Shown here: in pieces, positions 59,918-63,555 of the stretch
How positions within the stretch are numbered: the stretch's first letter is position 1
Layout: every line of letters starts with the position of its first letter
From: Armatimonadota bacterium
GTDB lineage: Bacteria; Sysuimicrobiota; Sysuimicrobiia; Sysuimicrobiales; Humicultoraceae
Direction: 5' to 3'
Assembly (NCBI GenBank): GCA_031081715.1
Contig: JAVHMA010000001.1
Location: forward strand, 95,385 to 159,384
Length of the DNA stretch: 64,000 nt
Notes under the pieces: generated by a model
The model's database searches: none
Seen by the model: only the letters and a program-made list of their open reading frames with translations
What the model was told of the DNA's origin: nothing
Made by a program: the position numbers and the translations under genes

Positions 59918-59947
59918 TTGACAGCGCCGCCCCGCGCTCGCTAGAAT
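59918..59947 (+). promoter_or_regulatory. Sigma-70 promoter of hisS-aspS
   Basis: TTGACA (59918-59923), 18-base spacer, TAGAAT (59942-59947). Transcription from about 59954 yields a leader of roughly 290 bases containing the T-box element. Confidence 0.82.
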
Positions 59948-59979
59948 GCCAGCAAGCACGCCGACCGTCATCGGCAGGC

Positions 59980-60224
59980 CGGCGACGACGGGAAGAGTAG
60001 GCCCCGGCGCTCCCAGAGAGAGGGCGCCACTGTGACGGCTGCAACCGCCCTCGAGCTACCCGGGGTCCGAACGACACCCCTGAGCCGGCGACGGGCCCGG
60101 GCCCGTCCGGGGACGCCCGTGACCGCGTGGAGGGTCCGGCCGCCGTGGTGGCCGGGAACCAGGGTGGCACCGCGGGAGGCGCAACGCGCCCCCGTCCCTG
60201 CGGGACGGGGGCGCGGCTCTTTTT
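59980..60224 (+). promoter_or_regulatory. T-box riboswitch (tRNA-Asp, possibly also tRNA-His) controlling hisS-aspS
   Basis: Stem I has AGTA (59996-59999) on its 5' side, GGCCCCGG/CCGGGGTC pairing, AGAGAG in the distal part (60015-60020) and a specifier loop GAAC-GAC-A (60069-60076), giving Asp codon GAC and, one frame on, His codon CAC (60075-60077). The antiterminator carries the T-box AGGGTGGCACCGCGGG (60161-60176). In its TGGN bulge N is C, which pairs with discriminator G73 of tRNA-Asp. A terminator follows. Uncharged tRNA should stabilise the antiterminator and allow expression. Confidence 0.92.
60185..60224 (+). terminator. Rho-independent terminator of the T-box leader
   Basis: Perfect 14-bp stem, arms 60185-60198 and 60202-60215, triloop TGC, then GCTCTTTTT ending at 60224. 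It ends 19 bases before the hisS start, as expected for T-box attenuation. Confidence 0.93.
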
Positions 60225-60243: not shown

Positions 60244-61542
60244 ATGGCGACGATCCAGGCGCCGCGAGGGATGCGCGACATCTTGCCCGGCGAGGTCGAG
60301 CGGTGGCAGGCGCTGGAAGCTCGCATCCACGACCTCGCCGCGCGCCACGGGTTCCGCGAGATTCGCACCCCGGTGGTGGAGCACACCGAGGTGTTCCAGC
60401 GGACCGTGGGCGAGGCCACCGACATGGTCGAAAAGGAAATGTATACGTTCACCGACCGCGGCGGCCGCTCGCTCAGCCTTCGGCCGGAAGGCACCGCGGC
60501 GGTCATGCGCGCCTACCTGGAGCATGGCCTGCGCCAGCAGCCGCAGCCGGCGCGGCTCTATTACATCGCGCCCATGTTTCGCTACGACCGGCCGCAGAAG
60601 GGCCGCTACCGCCAGCACACGCAGTTCGGCGCCGAGGTCATCGGCAGCGCGCACCCCGCCGCGGACGCCGAGGTACTGGTGCTGCCGATCCGGCTCATGC
60701 AGTCCCTGGGCCTGACCGAGATCGAGGTGCGTCTGAACAGCGTCGGCGACGCGGTCTGCCGGCCCCGGTTCCTGGAGGCGCTGCGGGCGTACTTGCGCCC
60801 GCGCGCGGCGGAGCTGTGCGAGGACTGTCGGCGGCGGTTGGAGCGCAATCCCCTGCGCGTGCTCGACTGCAAGCGCGAAGGGTGCCACCGGATCGCACAG
60901 GGCGCGCCGTCGTCGATCGACCACCTCTGCGAGGCGTGCGCGGCGCACCTGGAAGGGGTACGGCGGCAGTTCGACCTCCTCGGCGTGCCCTACCGCCTCG
61001 ACCCGTCGATCGTCCGGGGGCTCGACTACTACACGCGGACCGCGGTGGAGGTCTTCTCCGGTCGGCTGGGCGCCCAGAACGCGATGTTCGGCGGTGGCCG
61101 GTACGACGGGCTCGCCGAGCAGCTCGGGGGCCCGCCGACCCCTGGCGTCGGCTTCGGGTTCGGCATGGACCGCTTGCTGCTCGCGCTCGACGGCGAGGGC
61201 GGCGCGCCGGCCGCCGACCGGCAGGTGCAGGTGATGGTCGTGACCATCGGGCCGGCGGCGGCCAGCCGGGGCGTGCAGGTCGCCGACCGACTCCGCGGTG
61301 CCGGCCTGCGCGTCGAGACCGATCTGCTCGGCCGCGACCTGCGCGCGCAGCTCAAGCACGCCGACCGCGTGGGGGTGCGCTACGCGGTGCTGCTCGGCGA
61401 CGACGAGTTGCGCTCGGGGGTGGTGATCCTCCGGGAGATGGCGAGCGGAGAGCAAGCCAGCGTGCCGGAAGAGGGCGCGGCGGCGGCGCTCGCGGCGCGC
61501 CTGGCCGCGCCGCCGGCGGCGGGGAAGGGGAGATGGCGATGA
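60244..61542 (+). CDS. hisS: Histidyl-tRNA synthetase
   Basis: Class IIa synthetase, 432 residues, ATG 60244 after GGGAGGG. IQAPRGMRDILPGEV, REIRTPVVEHTEVFQRTVGEATDMVEKEMYTF (motif 1), FRYDRPQKGRYRQHTQFGAE (motif 2), LDYYTRTAVEVF and GGRYDGLAEQLGG, with GFGFGMDRLLLAL as motif 3; the C-terminal anticodon domain starts near 330. A four-cysteine insert (CEDC, CKREGC, CEAC, about residues 195-230) is present, possibly metal-binding. Overlaps aspS (ATGA). Confidence 0.95.
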   Translation: MATIQAPRGMRDILPGEVERWQALEARIHDLAARHGFREIRTPVVEHTEVFQRTVGEATDMVEKEMYTFTDRGGRSLSLRPEGTAAVMRAYLEHGLRQQPQPARLYYIAPMFRYDRPQKGRYRQHTQFGAEVIGSAHPAADAEVLVLPIRLMQSLGLTEIEVRLNSVGDAVCRPRFLEALRAYLRPRAAELCEDCRRRLERNPLRVLDCKREGCHRIAQGAPSSIDHLCEACAAHLEGVRRQFDLLGVPYRLDPSIVRGLDYYTRTAVEVFSGRLGAQNAMFGGGRYDGLAEQLGGPPTPGVGFGFGMDRLLLALDGEGGAPAADRQVQVMVVTIGPAAASRGVQVADRLRGAGLRVETDLLGRDLRAQLKHADRVGVRYAVLLGDDELRSGVVILREMASGEQASVPEEGAAAALAARLAAPPAAGKGRWR

Positions 61543-63320
61543 GCGTGGCGACCGTGATGCGCAGCCACATGTGCGGCGCGCTGCGGCCCGCCGATGTCGG
61601 TCAGACCGTGCGGCTGTGCGGCTGGGTGCAGCGCCGGCGTGACCTGGGCGGCCTGGTCTTCCTCGACCTCCGCGATCGCGAGGGTGTGGTGCAGGTCGTC
61701 GTGAACCCCACCGAGGTCGGCCCGGAGGCGGCGCGCGCGGCGGACGCGGTGCGCGCCGAGTTCGTCGTGCGCGTGGAGGGTCCGGTCGTGCGCCGCCCTG
61801 AGGGGACGGTCAACGCGCGGCTGGCGACCGGGGAGGTCGAGGTCCGGGCCCAAGCGGTGGAGATCCTCGCACCCTCCCTGACCCCGCCGTTTTCTCCTGG
61901 CGATGAGGCCGACCCCGACGAGGCGCTGCGGCTCCGCTACCGCTACCTCGACCTGCGCCGGCCGCGGATGGTCGCCAATCTGCTGCTGCGCCACCGGACC
62001 GCGATGGCGGTACGTCGGGCCCTGGACGCGCTGGGGTTCGTGGAGGTCGAGACCCCGATGCTCATCCGGAGCACGCCGGAGGGCGCGCGCGACTTCATCG
62101 TGCCGAGCCGGCTCCAGCCCGGCAAGTTCTACGCGCTCCCGCAGTCGCCCCAGCTCTTCAAGCAGCTGCTCATGGTGGCCGGCCTGGACCGCTACTTCCA
62201 GATCGTCCGGTGCTTCCGCGATGAGGACCTGCGGGCCGACCGCCAGCCCGAGTTCACGCAGATTGACGTGGAGATGAGCTTCGTCGGCCAGGACGACATC
62301 ATCGCGGTCACCGAGACGGTCGTGGCCACGGCGGTCGAGTCGGTGCGGGGCGTGCGCGTGGCGACGCCGTTCCCCCGCCTCTCGTACGCTGACACGATGC
62401 TGCGCTATGGGTCCGACAAACCGGATCTGCGCGTGGACCTCGAGATCGCCGACCTCACGCCGCTGGCTGCCACGAGTGGCATCGAGCGCTTCGCGGCGGC
62501 CGCGGCCACCGGCGGGGTGCTGCGCGGCCTGCGGGTGCCCGGATGCGCCGGCGCGTCGCGCCGCGAGCTCGACGAGCTCACCGCGGTGGCGGTAGCCGCG
62601 GGCGCCGGCGGGCTGGCTCCCCTCGCGCTTGTCGCCGGCGGTCCTCGCGGCCCGCTGGCGCGTCGGCTGACCGAGGGCGCAGTGGCGGCCGTCGCGGAGC
62701 GGACCGGCGCGCGGGAAGGCGACCTGGTGCTGCTCGTCGCCGGGCCCGAGCCGGTGGTCGCGGCCGCGCTGGGCCGGTTGCGCCTGGACGTAGCGGAGCG
62801 CTACGGCCTGCGCCGCGACGACGGCGCCCTGCGATTCGTCTGGGTCACCGGGTTCCCCCTGCTCGAGTGGAGCGATGCCGACGGCCGGTACACGCCTGTC
62901 CACCATCCGTTCACCGCGCCGATGATCGAGGATCTGCCGCTGCTGGCCACCCATCCTGGTCGGGTCCGGGCTCAGGCGCACGACCTGGTGCTGAACGGCG
63001 TCGAGCTCGGCGGCGGCAGCATCCGGATCCACGACCGGGCGGTCCAGGAACGGGTCTTCGACCTGCTCGGCATCGGGGCCGAAGAGGCCCGTGCCCGTTT
63101 CGGATTCCTGCTCGAGGCACTCCAATATGGCGCGCCTCCCCATGGCGGTATCGCACTCGGGCTGGATCGGTTCGTCATGCTGCTGGCGGGCGAGGCGACC
63201 ATCCGAGAGGTCATCGCTTTCCCGAAGACCGCGAGCGCGGCCGACCTGCTGACCGGTGCGCCCGGCGAGGTGGACCCGGCGCTGCTCCGCGACGCGCACA
63301 TCGCGGTGATCGCCGACTGA
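61539..63320 (+). CDS. aspS: Aspartyl-tRNA synthetase
   Basis: 593 residues, bacterial type: OB anticodon domain (VRLCGWVQRRRDLGGLVFLDLRDREG), catalytic core with FIVPSRLQPGKFYALPQSPQLFKQLLM and CFRDEDLRADRQPEFTQIDVEMSF (motif 2), GAD insertion (about 285-420), and motif 3 GIALGLDRFVMLL followed by FPKTASAADLLTGAPGEV. ATG 61539 is chosen for the ATGA overlap and AAGGGGAG site; ATG 61533 is in frame. Whether it also charges tRNA-Asn cannot be told. Confidence 0.95.
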   Translation: MSVATVMRSHMCGALRPADVGQTVRLCGWVQRRRDLGGLVFLDLRDREGVVQVVVNPTEVGPEAARAADAVRAEFVVRVEGPVVRRPEGTVNARLATGEVEVRAQAVEILAPSLTPPFSPGDEADPDEALRLRYRYLDLRRPRMVANLLLRHRTAMAVRRALDALGFVEVETPMLIRSTPEGARDFIVPSRLQPGKFYALPQSPQLFKQLLMVAGLDRYFQIVRCFRDEDLRADRQPEFTQIDVEMSFVGQDDIIAVTETVVATAVESVRGVRVATPFPRLSYADTMLRYGSDKPDLRVDLEIADLTPLAATSGIERFAAAAATGGVLRGLRVPGCAGASRRELDELTAVAVAAGAGGLAPLALVAGGPRGPLARRLTEGAVAAVAERTGAREGDLVLLVAGPEPVVAAALGRLRLDVAERYGLRRDDGALRFVWVTGFPLLEWSDADGRYTPVHHPFTAPMIEDLPLLATHPGRVRAQAHDLVLNGVELGGGSIRIHDRAVQERVFDLLGIGAEEARARFGFLLEALQYGAPPHGGIALGLDRFVMLLAGEATIREVIAFPKTASAADLLTGAPGEVDPALLRDAHIAVIAD

Positions 63321-63369: not shown

Positions 63370-63555
63370 GGAACGGTTCTCTGCCGTGTGCGAGGCGGGT
63401 CGATAGCCCCGATCCAACACGGAGTCCCAGGGAGCCCGTCTCCGACCGTGGAGGGTTCCCGCGTGATCAGCGTGGGCGACGAATCGGTCGGGAGGGCACC
63501 CACCTACGAGCGTAGGGTTCGGGGGCTATGATCCGCACGGCACGGCGGAGAGCAC
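63370..63555 (+). ncRNA. ssrS: 6S RNA
   Basis: A long, rod-like RNA is predicted in the 360-base gap between aspS and rarA, the usual Bacillota 6S locus. Closing stem: GTTCTC (63376-63381) with GAGAGC (63548-63553), GCCGTG (63383-63388) with CACGGC (63541-63546), TGCG (63389-63392) with CGCA (63534-63537). A central open region contains GATCC (63411-63415) and TATGATCC (63527-63534). The apical arm pairs TCCGACCG (about 63440-63448) with CGGTCGGG (63485-63492). 6S mimics an open promoter and binds sigma-70 RNA polymerase. No open reading frame in the gap is convincing. Confidence 0.75.

Follow-up and report, generated by a model that had tools for sequence, protein, structure and literature searches.

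Positions 59918-60224 of the window, the 64,000-nucleotide stretch of DNA that was analysed, comprise a T-box leader together with a promoter-like site and an intrinsic terminator, all upstream of hisS and aspS (Table 1). The placement of a T-box ahead of these two genes in the initial annotation is substantiated. The T-box model RF00230 matches over its full length (59976-60202, + strand; model positions 1-219; 22.5 bits, E 0.0054 in a 501-base search), and in the alignment Stem I, the T-box and the terminator follow one another in this order. The conserved T-box sequence, AGGGTGGNACCGCG with UGGN, is present in the leader (60161-60174), with GGTGGCACC at 60163-60171. The model score falls short of the 93 bits that Rfam sets as its gathering score, which is why the default search missed the leader and a permissive one was used. 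All 16 RF00230 matches in the window's genome are likewise below the gathering score, the best of them reaching 51.6 bits; the hisS leader of a relative from the same order, G014 (C29:28808-29047, with the hisS match from 29162), scores 99.5 bits and is above it. A 6S RNA (76.9 bits, above the Rfam cut-off) was also observed 3' of aspS, at 63375-63555 (+) of the window.

Table 1. Features of the hisS-aspS locus, and the tRNA-Ala gene found in a Leu-type leader elsewhere in the genome. Positions refer to the window unless a locus is named.
Feature	Position	Strand	Basis
Sigma-70-like promoter, TTGACA-18-TAGAAT	59918-59947	+	Consensus scan, 11/12 matches; 50 shuffles, mean 0.0
T-box Stem I with specifier bulge	59978-60089	+	RF00230 alignment and minimum-energy fold
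AGTA, bulge side facing the specifier	59996-59999	+	Aligned to RF00230 AGUA; invariant in 13 aligned leaders
Specifier GAC (Asp)	60073-60075	+	Unpaired; six bases 5' of GAGCC; invariant in 13 aligned hisS leaders
CAC (His) overlapping GAC, two bases out of register	60075-60077	+	Last C pairs with G59992 in the fold model
GAGCC anchor of Stem I	60082-60086	+	RF00230 alignment; aligned leaders
T-box sequence AGGGTGGCACCGCG	60161-60174	+	UGGC at 60165-60168; aligned in RF00230
Intrinsic terminator	60185-60224	+	Stem 60185-60215, T run 60220-60224; 14 pairs, 13 of them G-C; fold z -3.93
hisS, histidine--tRNA ligase	60244-61542	+	TIGR00442, 490.1 bits
aspS, aspartate--tRNA ligase	61539-63320	+	NF001750, 795 bits; TIGR00459, 696 bits; start overlaps hisS stop by 4 bases
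tRNA-Ala(GGC) in T-box leader	L001 1552-1626 = L123 3447-3521	-	Between Stem I and T-box

The specifier bulge reads GAAC-GAC-ACCCCT-GAGCC and, as the initial annotation had pointed out, holds overlapping codons for the two amino acids of the operon within GACAC (60073-60077). The register in which these bases are read can be taken from the other T-box leaders of the same genome, for which ten downstream proteins were compared; one (L008), which had no match at 1e-40, was left out. In all nine leaders with a named product the triplet six bases 5' of GAG or AAG encodes an amino acid in keeping with that product or the pathway it belongs to (Leu, ilvB and ilvE; Gly, glyQ; Val, valS; Ile, ileS; Pro, proC; Phe, DAHP synthase and pheS; Thr, thrS). 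A shift of two bases 3', to the position of CAC, gives a suitable triplet in none of the nine. GAC is assigned as the specifier because it, too, lies six bases 5' of GAGCC, and it fits the operon, aspS being the second gene downstream. The ileS leader of this genome, ATC-ACCCCC-GAGCC, contains the same CAC with no link to His. The fold of Stem I leaves GAC and A60076 single-stranded and joins C60077 to G59992 (probability of being paired, 0.77); RF00230 likewise assigns C60077, the last base of CAC, to a helix. TBDB, in the accessible part of its description, locates the specifier 2-4 bases from the end of the bulge, and this placement rule, applied to the leader in the window, also returns GAC.

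A separate observation concerns the Leu-type leader upstream of ilvE, on contig C14 of the same genome and outside the window, which harbors a complete tRNA-Ala(GGC) gene 16-55 bases before GGTGG. A scan of 15 other leaders found tRNA-Ala inside the leader in six further genomes from the order (L224, L236, L238, L245, L256 and L269). The sequences flanking the tRNA are able to pair, as if it filled the loop of Stem III, and excision of the tRNA would therefore split the riboswitch. A literature search by title found no paper on a tRNA gene inside a T-box leader.

With regard to the tRNA recognized, the G73-CCA end of the genome's own tRNA-Asp is complementary to UGGC in the T-box sequence, which, together with the register of GAC, upholds the initial reading of Asp as the main signal. 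The same annotation held that UGGC does not match C73 of tRNA-His, and tRNA-His indeed ends in C73-CCA in seven of ten same-family genomes besides that of the window (G001-G005, G008 and G009); a search pattern with a fixed T at position 32 proved too narrow for most genomes and a looser one succeeded, the His-shaped match of G007, one base short, being left out of the count. No tRNA-His gene was found among the 45 tRNA matches in the window's own assembly (G000), of which 35 read as tRNAs and the other ten are 83-92 bases long. The draft is rated 97 percent complete and most relatives show such a gene; its absence here is probably an assembly gap. Across 28 hisS leaders, 15 from the order and 13 from a second phylum, UGGN is UGGC in 22 and UGGU in five and is lost in one; UGGG occurs in none of them, and a C73 tRNA-His is therefore unable to complete the second contact in any.

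Comparison with relatives reveals how differently the two codons are conserved. The order sample comprised 43 genomes, 40 of them with a HisRS match and 15 with a specifier that could be read by eye in the hisS leader; one genome cut inside the leader (G012) was left out, and for the 24 other HisRS-bearing genomes no T-box was seen by eye in the approximately 400 bases read. GAC is kept in all 15 hisS leaders, whereas the following AC is present in only eight (G000, G008, G009, G010, G013, G029, G035 and G037), being replaced by GC in three (G002, G014 and G033), GG in two (G005 and G006) and AG in two (G001 and G007). When 13 of these leaders are aligned, AGTA, GAC, GAGC and the T-box prove to be conserved, the columns of GAC being invariant and the next two variable. 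An aspS like that of the window still follows hisS in five genomes whose leaders have no CAC (G001, G002, G005, G006 and G014), and CAC can therefore be missing from an intact operon. The proposal in the initial annotation of a sensor for two tRNAs is not supported. One of the two findings which that annotation had named as speaking against it, conservation of GAC but not of the AC behind it, is what the relatives show, and the last C of CAC lies in a helix.

Two further observations were made on these loci. The hisS leader of G013 (L076) has GACAC and a broken T-box, with GGTCACACC instead of GGTGGNACC and UGGN lost; it is apparently decaying. In one family of the order (L060, L062, L071 and L063) the gene after hisS is 32-36 percent identical to the AspRS of the window, in two stretches, and may encode a different AspRS-like or AsnRS-like ligase.

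The weight of the overlap depends on how often AC follows a specifier that ends in C. In leaders other than those of hisS, AC follows an NNC specifier in 6/50 cases in the order (103 loci given, 33 set aside by script, 70 clear non-hisS leaders) and in 17/37 in the second phylum (13 genomes; 90 loci given, 43 set aside by script, 47 clear and, less two hisS leaders, 45); these specifiers were read by script and those of the hisS leaders by eye. Given this background, the GAC/CAC overlap was rejected as evidence in itself. By triplet, AC follows TGG in 9/11, TTC in 3/9 and ACC in 2/9 leaders of the order, and ACC in 4/4, ATC in 4/6 and TGC in 2/2 of the second phylum. There is nonetheless a nominal excess in hisS leaders. 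With related sequences counted as independent throughout, the comparison in the order is 8/15 versus 6/50 (Fisher p 0.002) or, without Leu CTC, 8/15 versus 6/28 (p 0.046); in the second phylum it is 10/13 versus 17/37 (p 0.10), and the pooled odds ratio is 5.7 (p 0.0006). Because relatives were counted in this way, and because the bases behind a specifier tend to go with the specifier family (TGG-AC, CTC-GT), it is uncertain how large the excess is, yet it cannot be called nil.

The hisS leaders of the second phylum were found better by a search for HisRS than by sequence patterns. The 109 HisRS matches gave 30 loci, 15 with a T-box sequence, from which L298 (Stem I unreadable) and L285 (identical to L284) were dropped, leaving 13 (L272, L273, L275, L279, L280, L281, L282, L284, L289, L290, L295, L300 and L301). 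Here CAC occurs in 10/13 leaders versus GAC in 9/13, four leaders (L282, L290, L295 and L300) having AACAC, with an Asn codon, and thus CAC without GAC; the irregular leader of L289 has GACAG. The AACAC leaders possibly sense tRNA-Asn, in organisms where a non-discriminating AspRS would also charge tRNA-Asn. As for the patterns, the one for Asp matched only G061 itself among 299 genomes of its phylum and was for that reason judged too strict; a general NNC pattern gave matches in 11 of 149 genomes, several of which by eye are not T-boxes. A contig scan for Asp T-boxes returned 22 stretches, of which four were read. L170 and L173 belong to the order and look by eye identical to the leaders of G009 and G010, L175 precedes hisS-aspS and carries GACAC, and L160 was discarded as not a T-box; the remaining stretches, by title mostly from GC-rich actinobacteria, look like chance matches.

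Taken together, these results make us confident that the hisS-aspS operon is under the control of a transcriptional T-box specific for Asp, the leader most likely being an ordinary RNA switch that turns on two genes for tRNA-charging enzymes at times of aspartate shortage. We infer from its sequence that the leader binds tRNA-Asp and acts by antitermination. Uncharged tRNA-Asp would make two contacts, its GUC anticodon pairing with the GAC of the Stem I bulge and its G73-CCA end with UGGC. This pairing would stabilize, against the terminator, an antiterminator formed by AGGG (60161-60164) and CCCT (60196-60199), two strands identified in the sequence and in its alignment to RF00230. A fall in charged Asp-tRNA would then lead to transcription of both hisS and aspS, hisS being carried along with the Asp signal and presumably showing no response to His. 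The CAC would be composed of the last base of the specifier, the usual stacking purine and the C that opens the lower helix of Stem I. Most likely, then, the His codon overlapping the Asp codon merely results from the bases that are usual after such codons.

Whether the AC context is itself under selection is a related matter. It is possible, and we suggest it tentatively, that AC is selected for stability rather than for His, with A60076 stacking on the codon-anticodon duplex, C60077 closing the lower helix, and GAC and AAC favoring A over G, a proposal that is compatible with an Asp-specific T-box. It is consistent with the purine kept for stacking directly 3' of the specifier, as described in the accessible part of a review (PMC7583486), and with the presence of AC behind TGG, TTC and ACC in the order and behind ACC, ATC and TGC in the second phylum, although GG or AG behind GAC in four leaders implies that this C is no strict requirement.

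A sensor that reads tRNA-Asp via GAC and, by a two-base shift, tRNA-His via CAC appears quite improbable. The match of both codons to the two enzymes of the operon, the nominally higher frequency of AC after the specifiers of hisS leaders, the retention of CAC without GAC in the four AACAC leaders and the precedent of a T-box with codons for both Asn and Glu reported from Clostridium acetobutylicum (PMC4052509, as far as its accessible text goes) speak for it. They are set against the lack of AC in seven of the order's 15 hisS leaders, no fewer than five of which still have hisS and aspS downstream, the pairing of the last C of CAC, the occurrence of CAC in the genome's own ileS leader, and the lack of UGGG, with which C73 of tRNA-His would have to pair, in all 28 hisS leaders. 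A variant that we consider very improbable is that AC is selected in hisS leaders since tRNA-His docks on CAC and, by competing, weakens the response to Asp; tRNA-His would not act as an inducer because C73 cannot pair with UGGC or UGGU. The AC excess and the AACAC leaders leave room for such competition, by which, were it to occur, the operon would weigh the pools of tRNA-Asp and tRNA-His against each other. That the leader has decayed and its T-box is not functional is barely credible, since the low Rfam score and a whole-leader fold z of -1.15 have to be set against the equally sub-threshold scores of every T-box match in this genome, the high score of the G014 leader, the elements conserved in the 13 aligned leaders and the strong terminator.

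The preferred interpretation, of an Asp-specific T-box with an incidental CAC, has some general implications. A T-box specifier ending in C often precedes AC and so yields a spurious His codon, and the present analysis settles this recurring misreading. It also adds hisS-aspS Asp T-boxes from a GC-rich lineage in which the Rfam cut-off misses most. The natural variants GACGC, GACGG, GACAG and AACAC make the two-tRNA idea cheap to test.

With respect to known systems, the leader aligns with RF00230 over its full length with all elements in order, but like the others of its genome it scores below the cut-off. The Clostridium acetobutylicum T-box of Saad et al. 2013 reportedly carries Asn and Glu codons shifted by one base. 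To judge from the accessible part of its description, it has in common with the leader in the window overlapping codons for two amino acids of one operon; both tRNAs bind there, however, whereas the leader in the window has a two-base shift, a second tRNA with the wrong discriminator and a second codon that is not conserved. The closest parallels are the hisS-aspS operons with T-boxes of bacilli and lactobacilli, for which the accessible text of PMC5313534 describes GACAC in the specifier loop as characteristic and cites Gutierrez-Preciado et al. 2009 as suggesting that it mainly interacts with aspartyl-tRNA. On that account, both the GACAC motif and its Asp reading are already published for hisS-aspS T-boxes, and operon, motif and reading are the same in the window. 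The leader reported here differs in belonging to a GC-rich genome of another lineage, in its low Rfam score, and in having close relatives that swap AC for GC, GG or AG.
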